The position numbers and the translations under genes are program-made. A stretch of DNA of 22,083 bases from a virus. Where the stretch lies: positions 1 through 22,083 of IMG/VR virus record IMGVR_UViG_3300046718_000570; one strand, written 5' to 3'. The notes beneath the pieces are model-generated. The model was not told where the DNA came from and ran no database searches. It worked only from the letters and a program-made list of their open reading frames with translations. Shown here piece by piece: positions 1 to 22,083 of this stretch. Positions within the stretch are counted from its first letter, which is position 1; every line of letters starts with the position of its first letter.

Positions 1-416
1 CCGCCCTGTGAGCCGAGGTTGGCAATCGGGGCATCGAGGTAGTTCTCTTCGAAGTAGCCGCCAGCATGCGCCACAGTGCAGGTTATGCGGATGTAGCCTT
101 CCGTTGGTGCGGGGGCTGAGCCGAACCGCACCGAGAACCCGTGCCGTGTGTAGATTGGGCGCATGGCCGCGTCGATCGTCTCCAGCTTGGCGTACTTGTT
201 GCCGAGGTGGCTGTTCTTGGCATCACGGACGACTGGCAGCATCTCGGATTGCGCATCTGCCATCGCCTGGTTGAACAGCCGGCGCGATTGGTCGTGGCCG
301 ACGTCACGTTGTAACCGCAGTAGTTCGCCAAACTTGGCCACGTCGAAGCTGTCGTCCTTGGCCGCGCGCTCGATGAACGACATCAAGGCGCCGTTGGCAG
401 GGGTGATCTCGTTCAT
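1..416 (-). CDS. erf: ERF-family single-strand annealing protein (5' part of gene, C-terminus outside window)
   Basis: The minus-strand frame starts at ATG 416-414 and stays open to the window edge, giving about 138 residues. The middle contains the segment KYAKLETIDAAMRPIYTRHG followed by GFSVRF and, later, GYIRITCTVAHAGG. This is the recognisable core of ERF-family (P22 Erf-like) recombinases. Known role of the family: annealing complementary single strands during phage recombination and genome circularisation in the cytoplasm. The start codon overlaps the stop of the upstream HNH gene (ATGA), so the two are translationally coupled. It is the most distal visible gene of the leftward early operon. 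The C-terminal part is not in the window, so the full length and any C-terminal domain cannot be judged. Confidence 0.88.
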   Translation of the reverse strand, partial: MNEITPANGALMSFIERAAKDDSFDVAKFGELLRLQRDVGHDQSRRLFNQAMADAQSEMLPVVRDAKNSHLGNKYAKLETIDAAMRPIYTRHGFSVRFGSAPAPTEGYIRITCTVAHAGGYFEENYLDAPIANLGSQG

Positions 417-973
417 AGGATGTGTCTCCAGTATGAGCCGCGTTTGATTAGCCTTATTTGAGTTTTAGAGACGCCATACGCTCTGGCAAGCGCACGGCCT
501 GGCGATGATGACGCGCGGATTGCTATCACCTGTTCGACCGAAAGTTTGGCAGCTTGCCTGCCCTTAGCCTTCATATCCGCCGCATTGTCGGCCGGAGTTC
601 CCAGGAACAGATGATTAGGGTTGCTGCACGACGTGTTGTCGCAAGTGTGGCACACGAACATTCCGCCAGGTATGGGGCCTTTATGTAGCTTGTAGGAAAA
701 GCGGTGAGCGGTATCACGCTTGAGTATTCCATCCACGACGTATGTTATGTGACCATAGCCACGTTGATTAACCGCCGCAGTCCATCCCCAGCAGGCGTCT
801 TGGTCTGTCGCCTTGCGAACAAATCTATTAAAGATTTCCTCTGGTGTTTGTGCCGCTGCGCGGTAATGACACTTGGGAGAGCAATGCCTCTGGCCCTCTT
901 TGATCCTGTAGGCAGGTCTCTCGAAGGTTTTTCCGCAATGTGCGCACAGCGCGGTCACTAGCGTGCGAGGCAT
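413..973 (-). CDS. HNH homing-type endonuclease inserted in the recombination operon
   Basis: A 186-residue protein. An N-terminal zinc-knuckle-like element has C10, C13, C31 and C35. The HNH core runs from about residue 89 to 130: H90 (AHRFSY), C108xxC111, C116, N118, N120, H121, then GT and D129-N130, as in HNH_3-type nucleases. The C-terminal 40 residues (LSVEQVIAIRA ... IRLIKRGSYWRHI) resemble the small helix-turn-helix modules used for target recognition in phage HNH enzymes. The ATG overlaps the Gp157 stop (TAATG) and the stop overlaps the ERF start (ATGA), so the gene sits in the operon without disturbing its neighbours. Inference: a free-standing mobile endonuclease gene with no role in the recombination pathway itself. 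Confidence 0.88.
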   Translation of the reverse strand: MPRTLVTALCAHCGKTFERPAYRIKEGQRHCSPKCHYRAAAQTPEEIFNRFVRKATDQDACWGWTAAVNQRGYGHITYVVDGILKRDTAHRFSYKLHKGPIPGGMFVCHTCDNTSCSNPNHLFLGTPADNAADMKAKGRQAAKLSVEQVIAIRASSSPGRALARAYGVSKTQIRLIKRGSYWRHIL

Positions 974-14459: not shown

Positions 14460-14950
14460 GCGGCCTGCTCGGCCCGATGGTGGCGCAAGGGATAACGCCG
14501 GACAGCGGGCAGGGGCAGCTGGCGACAGCGATCAGCAGCTTCTTTGGCGGCGGGACACCGCAGTTCCAGACGCCCACGCCGCAGGCACCGGCCCCGGCAC
14601 CAGACCCGACGTATGACAAGTGGGGGCATGTTGTCAGCGGTAGCCCCCAAGGGCAGATGCCGCAGGTAGCGCCCACCGTGCCGTCGCTGAACGTCGGCCC
14701 GGGGTTGGCACCAGCGGCCGCACAAGCCCCCGCAGGACAGATCAACCCCGGCGCCAGCGGCTACGACATGTGGGGCAGGCAGGCACCACCACCACAGCAG
14801 GCCACACCGCAGCTTCCGGGCCTGGCCGACATTCTGGCGATGATCCAGGCGGCACAGGCTAAGCAGGCGGCGAATGCGCCCGTGCCGCCGGGACTACTGA
14901 GCGATGGCGCCAGCGAGGGCGGTGGCGGTGGCGCAGAGGGGACCATGTAG
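14456..14950 (+). CDS. Pro/Gln/Ala-rich hypothetical protein, 164 aa
   Basis: 164 residues of low complexity (TPTPQAPAPAPDPTYDKWG). The motif YDxWG occurs twice (about residues 53-57 and 101-105), each after a Pro-rich linker. A short helix (LADILAMIQAAQAKQAAN) lies near the C-terminus. Coupled by ATGA to the gene before and by TAGTG to the portal gene after. Probably an intrinsically disordered structural or accessory protein; function not known. Confidence 0.58.
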   Translation: MSGLLGPMVAQGITPDSGQGQLATAISSFFGGGTPQFQTPTPQAPAPAPDPTYDKWGHVVSGSPQGQMPQVAPTVPSLNVGPGLAPAAAQAPAGQINPGASGYDMWGRQAPPPQQATPQLPGLADILAMIQAAQAKQAANAPVPPGLLSDGASEGGGGGAEGTM

Positions 14951-17673
14951 TGAGCGGACTGATCCAACGACCCGGCGGCCTGCTGTCCCCCGGACCTATG
15001 GGCATGCCCCCTGGCATCATCCCGCCCTTGCCGCCGCTGCAAGGCCTGGTGCCATCCGGCATGCAGCCACAGGGCCTGAACCTCGGCAGCGAGCAAATGC
15101 TGGCCTACCTGGTGCCGCAGCAGGCGGATCTACATCCACACAACCCCGACCAGGATCTACCGCCAAACCTGCGCCGCTATGCCGCTGGGCTACGCCCGAC
15201 ACCCAAGCCAGCCGGCGTGCCCTGGCAGCAGGAAATCGTGTTCGAGCGGCTCGGCAAGGACGACAGGGAGATTGAAGCGGTCGCGCAGTATTATTTCAAG
15301 ATCGCACAGAATTACGATATGTATCTCAGCCGAGAACGCATCACGGCGAGCCAATACTACGATGGCCGGCCGCTCGGTGATGAAACGCCGGGGCGGTCGC
15401 AAATCGTGCTCACGGTGGTCAGGGATACGATCAGGAGCACGCTGCCATCACTGCTGCGCGTGTTCACGGGGGTCGAGGATCCGGTGTCGTTTGAACCGAT
15501 TTCATCGGAAATCACCGGCAATGACCAACTCGCCACCATGCTGTCGAAGCAGGCGACCGACTATGCCCGCTGGGCCTTATTCAGCGCCAACCACGGCTGG
15601 CAGGTGCTGCACGACGTGTTGCTGGATGCACTGACCAGGAAGGCAGGATGGGCGCGCTGGTATTGGGGCAAGCAGGAGCAAATCCGCACCGATGTGTGCG
15701 AGGGCCTGCTGCAGCCGCAGCTCCAGATGCTGCTCGCCCAGCCTGGCATCGAGGCGCAACGCATCGTCCGCCGCCCGATGACGCAGGAAGAACAGAGCGT
15801 CATGATGAAAACACCCGACGGGGCGATGTATCTGAGCCAGGGCGGCGCACCCGAAATGTGGGCGGCGACGATTACGCGGACAGCGCAGCAGAACTGGCCG
15901 TGCGTCGAAGCGGTGCCGGCAGAATGCGTCTGGGTGGTGGCCGATGCGAACGACGTCGGGACCGCCAGGGGTATCTTCCACGTCAGAGACGTTCCAGCCT
16001 CCGACCTCATCGAGATGGGCCTGCCGGAAGATAAGATCCTGGCCTACTGCGATACCATGATGCGGCCGCAGCAACGCCGCGAGATGATTGCCCGTAATCC
16101 GGCACAGGGGCTCAATATCAAGGCGTCGCCGCCGAATGACCGCAGTATGGGCATCTGTCGCTACGCTGAGGGCTGGATCAGGTGCGATACGGATAACGAC
16201 CACAAGGCCGAGTTGATCCATGTGCACATGCTCGGTAATGCGACCAAGATGATCCAGTGGGAACGCTGCGACGAAATCCCGCTGGCGTGTTTCACCCCAT
16301 ACAGGGAACCCGGCCGCCTGATCGGCTATTCGCAGGCCGACATGGTCATGGACCTGCAGCGGGTCGAAAGCCGCGTTATGCGGGCCACGCTCGACAGCCT
16401 GGCCCAGAGCATGTTCCCGCGGACCGTCGTCACCCTGGGGCAAGTCAATCTCGCGGATGCGCGCCAGACCGCCATCGGCAGCATTATCCGGACGACGCAG
16501 GCCGGGGCAGTGACGGAGCTGGTGAAGCCCTACACCGGCGAAGCTGCCCTGAACATGATGCAAGCCCTGGAGGCCATCCGGGAGAGCAGGACAGGCATCA
16601 CGCGGGCCAGCCAGGGACTCACAGTTGACGAGCTGCAATCGACCGCCCCGGTGGCCGTGTCGGCGCAGACCAGCGCCGCACAAGACCGCCTCGACATGAT
16701 GGCGCGCACGCTGGCCGAAACCGGCCTGGCGCCGCTGTATAGCGGGCTACTGAAGATGATGGCGCGGCATCAGGACCGGCCCAACGTCTATCGTATCCGC
16801 GGCCAATGGGCGGCGATCGATCCGCGCGCCCTCGGGGTGATGTGGCAGACCTCGGTCAATGTCGGCGGCAAGGGCATGCCCATGGAACGCCTGGCGATGT
16901 TGAGCCAAATTGCTGGCAAGCAGGAAATGATCATGGCCAGCCAAGGGCTCGATAACCCCCTGGTGGGGGTGCCGGAATATAGGAACACGCTGTCGCGGAT
17001 GCTGGAAACCGCCAACATTGCTGATGTGTCCAGCTACTTCAAAGCCCTGCCGCCGGGGTTCCAGGCGCCGCCACCACCACCGACACCGCCCGATCCGTCA
17101 CTGATCCTCGCCCAGGTGCAGGCCGGCAAGACCGCAGCCGATGTCGAGAACGACCGGGCGTCGGAACAGACCAAGCGGGCGCAGATGCTGACTGATGATG
17201 ATCTGAAGCGGGATCAGGCTGCGCTGGATGCGTGGACGAAAACGTGGGTGGCGGGCGCACAGTTCGGCACCCCGGTGCCCAGCCTCACCGAGTTCCAGCA
17301 GGCGATGGCCAGCAAGGTGCCGGGCATCCAGCTGCTCGGCAATCTGCCACCGCCGACGTCTCCCCAGATGCCAGCCACGGCAGGACCACCCCCAGGACAG
17401 CAGCCGCCCCCTGGAGGGCCGCCACGGCCTCCGCAGGCGCCGCCACAGGCACAAGCGCCAATGATGCCGCCACGCCCGCCACAGCCCATGGGGCCGCCTG
17501 TCGGCTCGACCAACCCGGCGCAGGCGATGGCCACCCGCCAGGCGCTGATGCAGGGCAATATGCCAAGCGCGTATGGCAACATCGCGGCGCGGGCCGCAGG
17601 ACAGAGCCTGTTCGGACCCGGAGGGCCTGCTCTGCCACGGCCCAACGCGCCACCACCACAACCAGGGCAATAG
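14950..17673 (+). CDS. Portal protein (P22-type)
   Basis: A 907-residue protein. After a Pro/Gly-rich N-terminus of about 90 residues comes the portal core: WQQEIVFERLGKDDREIEAV, then YYDGRPLGDETPGRSQIVLTVVRDTIRSTLPSLLRVFTG (split by other residues). This is a typical start of large podovirus-type portal proteins with 'YYxGxPxGxExxGRSxVV...' and 'LPSLLRxF'. The body has many helices and a wing-like beta region. The C-terminal 200 residues are Pro/Gln-rich and include long Ala/Pro tracts (QPPPGGPPRPPQAPPQ). GTG start overlaps the preceding TAG. It would form the dodecameric DNA gate at one capsid vertex, docking TerL. Confidence 0.85.
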   Translation: MSGLIQRPGGLLSPGPMGMPPGIIPPLPPLQGLVPSGMQPQGLNLGSEQMLAYLVPQQADLHPHNPDQDLPPNLRRYAAGLRPTPKPAGVPWQQEIVFERLGKDDREIEAVAQYYFKIAQNYDMYLSRERITASQYYDGRPLGDETPGRSQIVLTVVRDTIRSTLPSLLRVFTGVEDPVSFEPISSEITGNDQLATMLSKQATDYARWALFSANHGWQVLHDVLLDALTRKAGWARWYWGKQEQIRTDVCEGLLQPQLQMLLAQPGIEAQRIVRRPMTQEEQSVMMKTPDGAMYLSQGGAPEMWAATITRTAQQNWPCVEAVPAECVWVVADANDVGTARGIFHVRDVPASDLIEMGLPEDKILAYCDTMMRPQQRREMIARNPAQGLNIKASPPNDRSMGICRYAEGWIRCDTDNDHKAELIHVHMLGNATKMIQWERCDEIPLACFTPYREPGRLIGYSQADMVMDLQRVESRVMRATLDSLAQSMFPRTVVTLGQVNLADARQTAIGSIIRTTQAGAVTELVKPYTGEAALNMMQALEAIRESRTGITRASQGLTVDELQSTAPVAVSAQTSAAQDRLDMMARTLAETGLAPLYSGLLKMMARHQDRPNVYRIRGQWAAIDPRALGVMWQTSVNVGGKGMPMERLAMLSQIAGKQEMIMASQGLDNPLVGVPEYRNTLSRMLETANIADVSSYFKALPPGFQAPPPPPTPPDPSLILAQVQAGKTAADVENDRASEQTKRAQMLTDDDLKRDQAALDAWTKTWVAGAQFGTPVPSLTEFQQAMASKVPGIQLLGNLPPPTSPQMPATAGPPPGQQPPPGGPPRPPQAPPQAQAPMMPPRPPQPMGPPVGSTNPAQAMATRQALMQGNMPSAYGNIAARAAGQSLFGPGGPALPRPNAPPPQPGQ

Positions 17674-17675
17674 GA

Positions 17676-17918
17676 ATGTCGGAGACCCATATCTTTGATA
17701 GCGTGGATGAATGGTGCGACCTCTTCATGGAGGCATTCGATAAGTCTCGTGTCAACGAGATCCTTGACGCCATCAATGCCAAAGATACCGATCACGCATC
17801 AATCATCGTCGCTTGCGCGCATATGCTTGGCGCACTGCTGAAGACCAACGATGACAGCTATTTTCCGCTCGCCATTATGGCAATGATTGTGCGTGCCAGC
17901 GAAAAAGATGAGCAATAG
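17676..17918 (+). CDS. Hypothetical protein, 80 aa
   Basis: An 80-residue acidic, helical protein (MSETHIFDSVDEWCDLFMEAFDK ... DHASIIVACAHMLGALLK). It follows the portal stop by two bases, with AGGA directly before the ATG. Codon usage is less GC-rich than in the portal (GAT, AAA, ATT, TCT codons), hinting at later acquisition. No family recognised. Confidence 0.62.
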   Translation: MSETHIFDSVDEWCDLFMEAFDKSRVNEILDAINAKDTDHASIIVACAHMLGALLKTNDDSYFPLAIMAMIVRASEKDEQ

Positions 17919-17928
17919 GAGAACCACC

Positions 17929-18084
17929 ATGGTCACACGTGCATCAGGCTCGCAGTCAACCAAGACCGTGCCACGCCAAGGGCAGAACAAACCAGCCAGC
18001 GGCGGCACGTCCGGCGCCGGCAAGGACCGCGGCACCGCCAAGCTGCCCACCATCAGCAGAACCACAGCGCCCAAGTCGCGGTAA
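17929..18084 (+). CDS. Basic, Ser/Thr-rich small protein, 51 aa
   Basis: ATG preceded by AGGAG at seven bases. The 51-residue product is basic and low-complexity (VTRASGSQSTKTVPRQGQ ... ISRTTAPKSR), likely disordered. The TAA overlaps the next ATG (TAATG). No family recognised; a nucleic-acid-binding or structural peptide is possible. Confidence 0.52.
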   Translation: MVTRASGSQSTKTVPRQGQNKPASGGTSGAGKDRGTAKLPTISRTTAPKSR

Positions 18085-18353
18085 TGGCTGTCGGTGGCCT
18101 GCTTGGCTCCGCAGTAGGGGCACCCGCCGACTGGACCGCGCGCCTCGGCCAGCAACCGCATCATGCGCGTGGCAATGTCGATCCCGGTATGGTCGCGCAG
18201 CCGGACGTGGATCCTGGGTACGGGCTGCACAACACACCGCTCGGCAACCTCAACCAATCGCCCGGGCAGGAAGTCGGTGGCTGGCTACCGGCCGGTATGA
18301 CCCAGGACGATCTGCTACGCGCGCTCCAGATGCTGCAAACGCAGGGGGCGTAG
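18084..18353 (+). CDS. Hypothetical structural-region protein, 89 aa
   Basis: 89 residues, Gly/Pro/Asn-rich with a small amphipathic C-terminal helix (MTQDDLLRALQMLQTQ). No family recognised. It overlaps the gene before by one base pair and abuts the gene after, so it belongs to the head operon. Confidence 0.55.
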   Translation: MAVGGLLGSAVGAPADWTARLGQQPHHARGNVDPGMVAQPDVDPGYGLHNTPLGNLNQSPGQEVGGWLPAGMTQDDLLRALQMLQTQGA

Positions 18354-18626
18354 GTGAGCGACCTCTCACGCGAGGAACGCCACGAAATCCTGCGCCGTGG
18401 CTCCGAGAGCCACCGCCTGCTGCAGGACCGCGAACTCATGGACGTGCTGACATTTATTCGGGAAGGCGCCGTGCAGACCGCCGTCCACGGCGCCGACGCC
18501 CGCGAGCGCGAGGATGCCCGCAACCTCGCCAGGGCGATCGACCACCTCGCCACCGAGATGCGCACCAGGCTCGATACCGCCCTGCTACAGGGCCAGCGCG
18601 AACAAGACGGACGGAAATTCGAGTGA
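18354..18626 (+). CDS. Helical head-operon protein, 90 aa
   Basis: GTG start directly after the preceding TAG. The 90-residue product is all-helical and charged (SREERHEILRRGSESHRLLQDRE, LMDVLTFIREGAV, then DARNLARAIDHLATEMRTRLDTAL). Similar short helical proteins lie between portal and scaffold genes in other podovirus-like genomes, but their role is not known to me. Confidence 0.6.
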   Translation: MSDLSREERHEILRRGSESHRLLQDRELMDVLTFIREGAVQTAVHGADAREREDARNLARAIDHLATEMRTRLDTALLQGQREQDGRKFE

Positions 18627-18635
18627 GCATGCACC

Positions 18636-19778
18636 ATGAGTGAGAGTAGCGGCACATCCGCGCCGGCTGCCCCGGCAACCCCCGCAGCAGCCCAGCCAGC
18701 CACCCCAGCACCCGCCAGCAACGACGCCGGCCTGGCCAATGCACCAGCCCCCGCATCTCAGGAGGCCATCAGCCTCTCCGATGCCGGGCGCATGCTCGCC
18801 GCCAAACGCCGCCAGGATGCCGCAACAGCACGCCTCAACCCCGTGCAGCAGGGACCAGGCGAAGCGCGTCTCAATCCAGCGGCAGCACAGCCCGCAGCGG
18901 CGCAACAGCAGCCAGCGGCCCCCGCCGCCCCCACCGACAGCTACGACACCATCGCCAAGGCGCTCGGATTGGACCAGGGGACCAGTCCGGCCACACCCGA
19001 TGGGACAGCACCAGCCGCAGACGCACCCGGTGATGGCGTCTATACGATCGACGGACACCGCGTCACCGCCGCGCAGATCCGCACCGCCATGGGCCAGGCG
19101 GCCGACTACACCAGGAAGACCCAGGAGCTGGCGCAGCAACGCCAACAACTCCAGCAGCAGGCCGAGGCACTCGCCACCGTGCTGCCCCACATCCAGCCCG
19201 AGTTGGCCAAACTGGGCCAGCAGCTGCAAGGCGCGGCGCCCCCCGATCCGCGCATGATCGATACCGACCCCCAGGGCTACCTGCGCCAATTCGCCGCCTA
19301 CCAGGCCGCCACCGCGGAGCAACAACGCCTCGGCACCCTCACCCAGCTGCAACAGCAGGCCTATGAGCGCTCGATGAGCCAGCAAGTAGAGGCCGGCAAC
19401 AAAATGCTCAGCGAGAAATACGAGTTCTGGCGCGATGATGCGTCCCGAAGTGCCGTCCAGCGCGATATCGCCCGCTGGGCCGAGGCCAAGGGCGGCTACA
19501 CCAGGCAGGAGTTGCAGGGGCTGAGTGACCCGCGCCACGTCGAAAGCATGATGAAGGCCATGATGTGGGATCGCATGGTCGAAGGCGCCAAAACCCGCGC
19601 ACCCCAGCCGGTGCAGACCGCACAGGTGCGTGGCGTGCGCCCGCCACCAGCTCCCGCCGCCGCGGTGCAGGCCATGGAGCAGGCGTTCGAGGCCGCACCC
19701 AACGCCAGGAACGCGGCTGCGTTGCTCAGCGCCCGCCGCTCCGCAGCAGCCGGCAGCAACGGCAGCGGGCGGTATTGA
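18636..19778 (+). CDS. Head scaffolding protein
   Basis: A 380-residue protein. The N-terminal 130 residues are Ala/Pro/Gln-rich and disordered. Then come a small domain YTIDGHRVTAAQIRTAMGQA, a long Gln-rich coiled coil (TQELAQQRQQLQQQAEALA) and a C-terminal helical domain (YLRQFAAYQAATAEQQRL onward). This composition, with an 'IDG...T..Q...A...A..YTRKTQELA' motif, is usual for phage scaffolds located just upstream of the MCP. It would guide capsid assembly and then leave the prohead. Confidence 0.75.
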   Translation: MSESSGTSAPAAPATPAAAQPATPAPASNDAGLANAPAPASQEAISLSDAGRMLAAKRRQDAATARLNPVQQGPGEARLNPAAAQPAAAQQQPAAPAAPTDSYDTIAKALGLDQGTSPATPDGTAPAADAPGDGVYTIDGHRVTAAQIRTAMGQAADYTRKTQELAQQRQQLQQQAEALATVLPHIQPELAKLGQQLQGAAPPDPRMIDTDPQGYLRQFAAYQAATAEQQRLGTLTQLQQQAYERSMSQQVEAGNKMLSEKYEFWRDDASRSAVQRDIARWAEAKGGYTRQELQGLSDPRHVESMMKAMMWDRMVEGAKTRAPQPVQTAQVRGVRPPPAPAAAVQAMEQAFEAAPNARNAAALLSARRSAAAGSNGSGRY

Positions 19779-19782
19779 CGAC

Positions 19783-20088
19783 ATGGCGGCTACGCGGGTC
19801 GCACTGATAGATCCCGCACTGTTGGAAAGGCTGGCGCGTGCTGGCTACCAAGAATGTTGGGAGTTTACCGCAGAATGGCCGGTGCCACAGCTGCCAGGCT
19901 GCTCGTGGGAGACTGCGCCGCCGCAGGTGAAAGAGTTGTGGTATCGTATTACGGCGCGGCTTCTTCTTGAGGCTAAGGGCAAACGCTTGACGACCCGTAG
20001 CTACGCTCGTAGCGTCCCCACCGTCGATCGGGGGCAGTCGCAGACCAAGCAACGATCGGGCCGTGCAGTCGCAGGACGACCAAGTTGA
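19783..20088 (+). CDS. Hypothetical protein between scaffold and capsid, 101 aa
   Basis: ATG four bases after the scaffold stop, 101 residues. Residues 1-65 look folded (DPALLERLARAGYQECWEFTAEW ... KELWYRITARLLLEA). The last 35 residues are Arg/Ser/Gln-rich and lie over the capsid leader RNA described below, so this tail may be a by-product of RNA-level constraint. No clear ribosome binding site. No family recognised. Confidence 0.5.
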   Translation: MAATRVALIDPALLERLARAGYQECWEFTAEWPVPQLPGCSWETAPPQVKELWYRITARLLLEAKGKRLTTRSYARSVPTVDRGQSQTKQRSGRAVAGRPS

Positions 20089-20123
20089 CCAGCAGCACGC
20101 AGCGCAGTCGCTGACCAAGCGCT
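20025..20123 (+). ncRNA. Capsid leader RNA, copy A: three tandem nested hairpins
   Basis: Three units of the form [outer stem]-A-GTC-loop-GAC-CAA-[outer stem]. Unit 1: CGATC/GATCG (20025-20029 with 20054-20058) around GTC-GCA-GAC. Unit 2: CGTGC/GCACG (20062-20066 with 20095-20099) around GTCG-CAGGA-CGAC. Unit 3: AGCGC/GCGCT (20101-20105 with 20119-20123) around GTC-GCT-GAC. The same three units, with different stem sequences that still pair, occur at 20829-20938. Part of the element overlaps the end of the upstream CDS. Confidence 0.72.
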
Positions 20124-20149
20124 AAACGCCTGCCAGGCCATCAGTCAGA

Positions 20150-20221
20150 TCCATTGCGAACCAGCAATTTTGGTTCAATCAGGCATGCAGCGTCGTAGCT
20201 ACGCGCGTGCCATGCAATGGA
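20150..20221 (+). promoter_or_regulatory. SD-covering three-way junction, copy A
   Basis: Closing helix P1: TCCATTGC (20150-20157) with GCAATGGA (20214-20221), which includes the GGA of the ribosome binding site GGAG (20219-20222). Inside are P2, GAACCA/TGGTTC (20158-20176), and P3, GGCA/TGCC plus GCGT/ACGC (20182-20211). The same layout is found in copy B. Confidence 0.68.
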
Positions 20222-20228
20222 GATGGAC

Positions 20229-20309
20229 ATGGCCGTTCCCGCACAGGGAGCCGCACCGGCAGGCACTTACATCGAGACCGCCGCCGTTGGCATTAAAGCA
20301 GCATCATGA
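20229..20309 (+). pseudogene. Truncated 5' end of a major capsid protein gene
   Basis: ATG 20229 with GGAG (20219-20222) six bases before it opens a 26-residue frame (MAVPAQGAAPAGTYIETAAVG, then IKAAS-stop). Its first 21 residues match the start of the intact MCP at 21035 except for A-G in place of S-N. Similarity ends after Val-Gly-Ile, where the HNH gene begins. Codons are the GC-rich kind of this phage, unlike the recoded start of the intact gene. Translation signals are intact, so a short peptide may still be made. Confidence 0.82.
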
Positions 20310-20811
20310 GAAGTATCAGTCTGATCCGGCGTTTCGTGCTCGCAAGAATGCCGCGACAAAGCGTTGGGCCGAGCAGAACCACGAACGCAACACGGCTCAC
20401 AAGCGTGCTTGGCGTGAGCGCAACCGTCAGGTCGAGAATGCAAAGGCGCTGGAACGCCTGCGCGCCGACCCAGACAAGACGAAGGCCACTCGCGCGGCAC
20501 AGAAGGCTATGAGGAAAGCCGCTGTCGGCCGGTTCACGGCAGAAGATGTCCAGACGCTGTTGGAGCGTCAGGGCTATCGTTGCGCTGCTCCCCATTGCCG
20601 CATCGATGTCCTGCATGACTTCCATTGCGACCATGTTCTGCCGCTCAGTCGTGGAGGAACCAACTCCTCGGACAACATCCAGATCCTGTGTCCGAAGTGC
20701 AATCTGACCAAGAATGACCGGACAATGGACGAATGGGAGGCGGCCAGGGCGGCGGATAAAGAGCGCTACAAGACGGTGCGGCCGTATCGTATTGACGACC
20801 GTCCCTACTGA
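20287..20811 (+). CDS. HNH endonuclease inserted at the capsid gene start
   Basis: From a TTG at 20287 the product has 174 residues; the frame is open back to 20170 but that part reads through the MCP fragment in another frame. The N-terminal 80 residues are Lys/Arg-rich helices (KYQSDPAFRARKNAATKRWAEQN). HNH core: C99 and C104 (GYRCAAPHC), D115-H116 (FHCDHVLPLSRGG), N126 to N130, C135 and C138 (ILCPKCN). All catalytic and zinc positions are present. No good start or ribosome binding site is visible. Translation may depend on the preceding capsid fragment (reinitiation or a +1 shift at its stop). A homing endonuclease is the natural reading. Confidence 0.8.
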   Translation: MALKQHHEKYQSDPAFRARKNAATKRWAEQNHERNTAHKRAWRERNRQVENAKALERLRADPDKTKATRAAQKAMRKAAVGRFTAEDVQTLLERQGYRCAAPHCRIDVLHDFHCDHVLPLSRGGTNSSDNIQILCPKCNLTKNDRTMDEWEAARAADKERYKTVRPYRIDDRPY

Positions 20812-20828
20812 CACCATACTGACATTCG

Positions 20829-20938
20829 CCGGCTGGGGGCAGTGCTTGCACCAAGCAACAGCCGGGAAGTGCAGTCGCTGAAGGATGACCAAGTCGGCAC
20901 TCGGCACGCCTAGCAGTCACCACGGGTGACCAAGCCAG
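20829..20938 (+). ncRNA. Capsid leader RNA, copy B: three tandem nested hairpins
   Basis: Same three units as copy A with compensatory changes. Unit 1: CCGGCT/AGCCGG (20829-20834 with 20860-20865) around GTG-CTTG-CAC. Unit 2: AGTGC/GCACT (20868-20872 with 20897-20901) around GTC...GAC. Unit 3: CTAGC/GCCAG with one mismatch (20910-20914 with 20934-20938) around GTCACC-ACG-GGTGAC. The linker CAAG after each inner hairpin is conserved in all six units. Here the element is non-coding, between the HNH stop and the MCP start. Confidence 0.75.
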
Positions 20939-20963
20939 AAACGCCCGATCTGCTGTCAGTCAC

Positions 20964-21027
20964 TCCATTGCGAACCAACCCAATCGGTTCAACCGGCGAG
21001 GCGCCTATGGCGCTCGCTAGCAATGGA
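20964..21027 (+). promoter_or_regulatory. SD-covering three-way junction, copy B (intact MCP)
   Basis: P1: TCCATTGC (20964-20971) with GCAATGGA (21020-21027), covering GGA of the GGAG at 21025-21028. P2: GAACC/GGTTC (20972-20990). P3: GCGA-GCGCC/GGCGC-TCGC (20996-21017) with one bulged G and a TAT loop; it differs completely in sequence from P3 of copy A. Predicted to hide the capsid ribosome binding site until opened. Confidence 0.7.
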
Positions 21028-21034
21028 GATGACA

Positions 21035-21925
21035 ATGGCTGTGCCAGCACAAGGCGCCGCGCCAAGTAATACTTATATAGAGACGGCTGCTGTTGGCGTG
21101 AGGGAAGATCTTGCCGACATCGTGTATAGAATTGACCCTGACGAAACTCCATTAGTCTCTGCTTGCCCTAGAGTTGGGTCTAAGCAAGTCCTGACCGAGT
21201 GGATCGTGCAGGAGCTCAACCCGGCCGCCGATAACGCCCAACCCGAAGGCTTCACCGCCGTCATGCAGGCGGTCATCAAGCCGGTGCGGCTCAACAATGT
21301 CTGCCAGATCCTGGCCCGCACAGTCGGGGTATCGAATACGTTGCGCGTGGTGGACGTTGTCGGTGGCGAGGACGAGTACAACCGCAACATGATCCTCCGC
21401 GCCATGGAGGTGAAGCGCGACCTCGAATTGGCAGTAACCAGCCCCTTGGTCCGCACCATCACCGACCCACGCCACATGAGCGGCTTGCCATGCTACACCA
21501 ACTTTGGCGCGCGTGGTGCCGGCGCTGGCGTCATGCCGATCGGTGACGGATCCAACGCAGGCACCGCAGGCACGCCCTACGACCTCACACTCGCCGTCGT
21601 CAACGCCGCCATCCAGCAGTGCTGGCAAGCCGGTGGCAATCCAACGATCGGCATCATGTCGGGCAACATCAAGAACTACTTCGCGACGCTCAGCCAGGGC
21701 GGCACCGGCAATCCGATCGTGGCGCAGAACATCGTGCAGGCGTCACCAACCGGGGAGATGACCATCCAAGGCGCCGTCGATGTCTACCGCACCAACTTCG
21801 GCACGCTGCAACTCACGCCCGACCGCTTCTGTCCCGCGCATCAAATCCTGCTTGTATCTACAGACTATGTCGAGATGGCACCGTTGCCAGAACGTGACAT
21901 GGTACAGCAGGATTACGCACAGACT
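21035..21925 (+). CDS. Major capsid protein (SU10/DUF5309-like), exon 1
   Basis: The start ATG 21035 (MAVPAQGAAP) is chosen because GGAG lies six bases before it; ATGs at 21023 and 21029 overlap that site. Visible are VREDLADIVYRIDPDETPLVSA, VQELNPAADNAQPEG and VCQILARTVGVSNTLRVVD, then EVKRDLELAVTS: the N-terminal signature of SU10/DUF5309-type capsid proteins. Codons 1 to about 51 use AGA, AGG, TTA, ATA and AGT; the rest uses CGC, CTC and ATC. Homologues continue after QDYAQT with a conserved C-terminus that is missing here. The frame instead runs 15 codons into an intron to a TAG at 21968-21970, so the coding exon is taken to end at T21925 and exon 2 lies outside the window. Confidence 0.85.
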
Positions 21926-22083
21926 CGCACCGCGGCGAATGACAACGCCAGTCATTCGATAGCGGCATAGGTCCTTCAGCAAGTGATTGCTGTCGAAAAC
22001 TGGGTGAATTCGGTGAAGGCGCAAACAGGAAAGCTGTGCGTAATACCGAGCCAAGCCCCGCAAGGGGAAGGTGTAACGACTAG
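21926..22083 (+). mobile_element. Group I intron in the MCP gene, 5' part (continues beyond window)
   Basis: P1: exon GACT (21922-21925) with GGTC (21970-21973), giving the required U-G pair at the splice site. It is extended by CCGC/GCGG and CGAATGAC/GTCATTCG (21936-21958). P2: CAGCAA-GTGA-TTGCTG (21977-21992). P4: TTCGGT (22009-22014) with ACCGAG (22045-22050). P5: GCGCA/TGTGC (22019-22039). P6: CC/GG with CCCC-GCAA-GGGG (22051-22071). The segments GGTGAATTCGGTGAA, AATACCGAGCCAAGCC and GGTGTAACGACTAG match the conserved core (P, Q, R) of phage group I introns. P7 3', P8, P9 and the 3' splice site lie outside. Confidence 0.85.

Follow-up and report, generated by a model that had tools for sequence, protein, structure and literature searches.

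Does the major capsid protein (MCP) gene at the right end of this viral DNA finish where its open reading frame finishes, or does an intron interrupt it there? The window, i.e. the whole stretch analysed, is a 22,083 bp IMG/VR virus record from an uncultured bacterial virus, and its last reading frame (21023-21970) encodes an SU10-type MCP that matched PF17236 (E 3.2e-55) and phrog_1328 (E 7.9e-56) in a profile search. A scan for relatives of this MCP gave 80 loci. The uninterrupted frame specifies an apparent protein of 315 aa, and its PF17236 match breaks off at profile position 264 of 292, 28 positions short of the end of the model. An earlier note on this DNA had stated that family similarity is lost after QDYAQT, had read the apparent stop at 21970 as intronic and had proposed that a group I intron splits the gene. 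The MCP relatives bear out the first of these statements: similarity extends to QDYAQT, and the intronless relatives, unbroken past residue 301, go straight on with GDNSQGG.... We therefore take codons 1-301 (21023-21925, plus strand) as the MCP 5’ exon. The note's placement of the 5’ splice site after QDYAQT was exact, and only the start of its feature, at 21921, has to be moved, since 21925 is the last base of the 5’ exon and 21926 the first of the intron.

Only the 5’ 158 of the 295 nt of the intron lie within the window (21926-22083, plus strand). A 2.4-kb search of the window with Rfam Intron_gpI, the search that the earlier note had suggested, gave 31.3 bits (E 1.5e-5) over model positions 1-149 of 253, starting at 21943; the window end removes the 3’ half of the intron, which is why this match stays under the gathering score. 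Since the window ends within the intron, its own data cannot settle the intron question. The note had also suggested looking to the right, and contig 3300046543_000454 (L002, L118), which is 100% identical to the window over 7,527 bp (14557-22083) and extends 289 bases beyond it, supplies the remainder. There the intron is complete at 295 nt (CGCACC...CACAAAG) and matches Intron_gpI (RF00028) with 69.6 bits (E 1.9e-15), and the 3’ strand of P7, P8, P9 and the terminal G, all outside the window, are present. The intron is followed by GGAGACAACTCG..., which codes for GDNSQGGVIFEGCIRPTAPKAHATIFDLNQ and then a stop; this is the missing 30-aa C-terminus of the MCP, regained when the intron is removed, and intronless relatives code for QDYAQTGDNSQGGVIFEGCIRPTAPKAHATIFDLNQ without interruption. 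Joining the L002 exons yields a 331-aa MCP with no gap and an unchanged frame. The note had said that downstream DNA lacking either the other core helices or the MCP C-terminus would refute its proposal, and the contig contains both. Complete Intron_gpI matches were found in seven contigs (66.7-72.6 bits), with G as the terminal intron base in all seven, and none in the five intronless relatives searched. The 295 nt contain no ORF, and thus no intron-encoded endonuclease.

That the uninterrupted frame ends at 21970 would also fit a naturally truncated MCP followed by a dead 3’ remnant, with no intron at all. Against this, the ribozyme structure is complete, the junctions are exact and the 3’ piece is under purifying selection in the seven contigs. 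Summed over all pairs of carriers, which are not independent, the 3’ exon shows 319 synonymous-codon differences and 48 that change an amino acid. Selection acting at the protein level implies that this exon is translated as part of the MCP, and the codon comparison is strong evidence that it still contributes to the capsid protein. We consider the truncated-protein reading extremely improbable. The presence of a group I intron in the MCP gene of the window is confirmed and the interpretation in the earlier note is supported: a spliced group I intron almost certainly interrupts the gene near its end, after codon 301. The stop at 21968-21970 (plus strand) is an in-frame UAG inside the intron, found likewise in all seven carriers, and the guide sequence starts with the G of this codon. 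If the intron were not spliced, the MCP would end at this UAG, lacking 30 capsid residues and carrying 14 foreign ones.

The P1, P2, P4, P5 and P6 pairings and the core strings reported in the earlier note are all where it had placed them; the coordinates that follow are on the plus strand. P1 is short, with 4 bp plus an extension, and is formed between GACU (21922-21925), whose U at 21925 makes the U.G pair at the 5’ splice site, and the internal guide sequence GGUC (21970-21973). These two strands pair in 7/7 carriers at both of the insertion sites described below; our first MAFFT alignment of the introns was not used for P1, as it misaligned the P1 part of one site (site A). The P2 hairpin, CAGCAA-GUGA-UUGCUG (21977-21992), has compensatory changes in L164, a locus with a related intron. 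The 5’ strand of P3, CUGGGUG (22000-22006), has its partner past the window and shows double changes in four of its seven pairs. The P4-P5 stem (22009-22050; P4, 22009-22014/22045-22050; P5, 22020-22023/22037-22040) is backed by both the Intron_gpI match and covariation, and P6 with P6a (22051-22071; 22051-22052/22070-22071 and 22056-22059/22064-22067) by covariation. The 5’ strand of P7, GACUA, lies at 22078-22082, and its partner UAGUC is found past the window in L002.

Covariation was assessed over an alignment of nine introns, including three more distant ones, for 54 core pairs in P2-P9 that comprise the P3/P7 pseudoknot and two hairpins between P7 and P3. Across these introns 97.5% of cells are paired and 28 of the 54 pairs have changed on both sides, compared with 35-42% of cells and at most eight double-changed pairs in controls with slid partners. 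P7 and P9 are invariant among the aligned introns and uninformative by themselves, so it is as a set that the helices P3-P9 are supported by covariation. The two hairpins, P7.1 and P7.2, contain double changes; hairpins between P7 and P3 are typical of group I subgroup IA, and in these extra elements the intron fits that subgroup. On inspection of the aligned junctions we recognised no canonical P10 between the guide and the 3’ exon, a pairing that is common in group I introns and not universal. At both insertion sites and in L164 the exon frame, read into the intron, stops at a UAG overlapping the guide, despite different phases. Lying before the catalytic core, such a stop would presumably prevent ribosomes from running into it.

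These elements suggest how splicing would proceed. In the folded transcript GACU, at the end of the exon, would be held in P1 by the guide GGUC, an external guanosine bound in P7 would cut after the U of GACU, and the exon end would then attack behind the terminal G, joining ...CAGACU to GGAGAC... to give the mRNA for the 331-aa MCP. Catalysis and splicing in vivo are here predicted from structure and junctions.

The seven carriers have the intron at two MCP sites 11 nt apart, both after GACU. Site B lies after CAGACU and before GGA, between codons, and is used in the window and L002 and in L003, L004 and L005. Site A lies 11 nt upstream, after CAAGACU and before ATGCGCAAACC, following the first base of a Tyr codon, and is used in L013, L017 and L024, where the intron is 304 nt long. 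At either site the intron-free MCP aligns to the intronless relatives without gap or frame change. The A and B introns are 92-94% identical and are separated by one branch of the intron tree (support 91/96).

Carriers do not group together in a tree of the MCP 5’ exon but are interspersed with intronless phages, requiring six changes of intron state, and the introns are 92-100% identical, compared with 80-94% for the 600 nt of 5’ exon before the sites. Scattered carriers with introns more alike than their exons suggest horizontal movement. In L004 and L005 the two introns agree at each of the 295 nt, also in the loops, although the MCP 5’ exons differ by 6.5% and the 3’ exons are 76% identical. 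The first ~20 nt of the 3’ exon, compared by eye, are nearly identical in all site B carriers, as would be expected for a short co-conversion tract. The same intron could instead be immobile today, inherited vertically from the ancestor of the group and lost many times, with structural constraint keeping its copies alike; it encodes no endonuclease, and a ribozyme core is strongly constrained. Constraint of this kind does not readily account for identical loops between exons that differ by 6.5% and 24%, nor does vertical descent for the six changes of state in the MCP tree, and we regard this explanation as unlikely. Recent horizontal mobility of the intron is, on the comparisons above, likely. 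Among bacteria, an exact 44-mer of the intron had no match in genome_contigs.

The intron would spread horizontally among related uncultured phages through homologous recombination, which is probably initiated where endonucleases encoded in the neighbourhood make double-strand breaks. It would also once have shifted by 11 nt within the MCP gene, from GAC-U^AY at site A to CAGACU^GG at site B; the simplest picture of this shift is reverse splicing directed by the shared GACU motif, a route to which we give roughly even chances. Both the mode of movement and the direction of the shift are read from comparison of present-day copies. With L164, which has GAC-U^AC like site A, as the root, site B appears derived, a weak indication that depends on a single distant outgroup.

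Candidate nucleases lie close at hand. In all six carriers with downstream sequence an HNH-type gene directly follows the MCP gene, and it is a familiar pattern for nuclease genes to lie close to capsid genes (PMC10448857). The position immediately behind the MCP gene in L003-L032 is a hotspot at which Endo VII-type, AP2/HNH_3-type and a third HNH type of nuclease gene are exchanged among close relatives. Such an arrangement recalls the psbA intron of cyanophage S-PM2 and F-CphI (PMC6083498), where a group I intron is likewise accompanied by an Endo VII-type nuclease gene that stands free beside the host gene. By this precedent a free-standing downstream endonuclease would cut the intronless MCP gene at the intron site and carry intron and nuclease across together. 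The 6/6 association speaks for such collaborative homing, but most intronless relatives also have nuclease genes behind the MCP gene and those of the carriers are of three different types, Endo VII-type in L003, L013 and L024. Furthermore, L013, with the intron, and L021-L023, without it, share a 98.8%-identical Endo VII gene behind the MCP gene. The nuclease genes here differ from F-CphI in that they do not co-segregate with the intron. We rejected a tie between the intron and any one downstream nuclease, the types varying and the same Endo VII gene occurring with and without it. Collaborative homing of the F-CphI type is possible, receives no support from co-occurrence, and seems to us doubtful, perhaps one chance among several; the preferred reading is still recombination set off by breaks from endonuclease genes of the neighbourhood.

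The earlier note had further claimed that the MCP gene carries two independent mobile elements at opposite ends, and this is upheld. The element at the 5’ end is a free-standing HNH (endonuclease VII-like) gene (20170-20811, plus strand, start codon approximate; PF01844, E 9.4e-10; phrog_1035, E 9.8e-25), and no Intron_gpI match was found at it in the window. Among MCP relatives of at least 89% identity, an HNH gene lies just upstream of the MCP gene only in L002, which is from the same phage, so the two insertions are independent. To the left of the HNH gene is a first copy of the MCP leader and first codons (20030-20291, plus strand), and a second, diverged copy, 68% identical to the first (20835-21097, plus strand), serves the intact MCP gene. 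The leader of most relatives is closer to the first copy (77-87%) than to the second (72-79%). Over 20030-21097 the second leader copy and the intact MCP start are diverged, as though the endonuclease had arrived with a recoded gene start of its own. Near the left end of the window (413-970, minus strand) lies another endonuclease gene, of the HNH_3 type (PF13392).

Phage capsid genes with introns have been described before, and this one is a further case. Mycobacteriophage LittleE has a group I-type intron in its major capsid gene, for which splicing was shown by RT-PCR and protein sequencing (PMC3706429), and a capsid-gene intron of lactococcal phage Tuc2009 is cited in the same paper. As here, the 5’ exon in LittleE ends in U and the intron in G (PMC3706429). 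The LittleE insertion measures ~819 bp, sits where the mature protein begins and contains a homing endonuclease frame (PMC3706429), whereas the present intron has 295 nt and no ORF and lies 30 codons before the C-terminus of an SU10-type MCP. What is new is the same intron at two neighbouring sites among sister phages, and the 11-nt double site is the unusual part.

Wider relatives of the intron also occur in MCP genes of two other families, PF13252 (L164) and PF19821 (L163). The L164 intron, in a Phage_capsid_3 (PF13252) MCP gene, is 74% identical to the present one over 202 nt and resembles site A in its guide GGUC, its exon codons GAC-U^AC, its phase and an in-frame UAG at the same place; it differs in its length of 320 nt and in the Pfam family of the MCP. 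This sister intron at a D-Y codon (L164 5129-5414, minus strand) would leave, after splicing, a protein 84% identical to intact homologues. In L163 (contig 3300037440_000172, 1-2600, minus strand) a Phage_capsid_2 gene has two group I introns (matches 689-917 and 373-593) with a very short exon between them; a LAGLIDADG gene (1408-2241) between the N-terminal part of the capsid gene and the rest is apparently a third insertion, in which no ribozyme core was detected. Another phrog_3437 capsid gene has a group I intron at a different position (L157 3439-3620, minus strand, 68.6 bits), and likewise L147, L143, L138 and L086. Comparison of the SU10, Phage_capsid_3 and Phage_capsid_2 MCP families by hhalign of alignments gave no significant match, and two AlphaFold models had pLDDT of about 35-40 around the insertion sites, too poor for positions to be compared across families.

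No record of an isolate phage matched over 80% of the intron. The ribozyme part is 70-75% identical to introns in different genes, one in the split ribonucleotide reductase (RNR) gene of Rhizobium phage RHph_N3_13 and one near terL in Pseudomonas phages KIL1-5. The intron-like stretch of KIL1-5 (L267 2001-2169; KU130126 21251-21419), right behind the annotated terL, is annotated solely as 'promoter'. A lineage confined to capsid genes was rejected, because isolate phages also have relatives at 70-75% identity in their RNR, terminase and helicase genes. One could go further and propose that a single intron relocated by 11 nt in one essential gene through its GACU match, by reverse splicing at the RNA level and not by DNA homing, and that its lineage also occupies the corresponding D-Y codon in a capsid family that looks unrelated, which would make capsid gene ends a favoured target for this ribozyme; we offer this tentatively, thinking it somewhat more likely to be wrong than right.

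We conclude that the intron is genuine and probably mobile; elements of its kind are well known, and its setting is slightly unusual. In these phages automatic gene calling yields a falsely truncated capsid protein. A single head gene combines an intron with an endonuclease insertion at its 5’ end and an endonuclease hotspot at its 3’ end, and the seven carriers, with two neighbouring sites and close intronless relatives, provide a clean natural case for studying how introns without endonucleases move, whether by reverse splicing or with borrowed nucleases.
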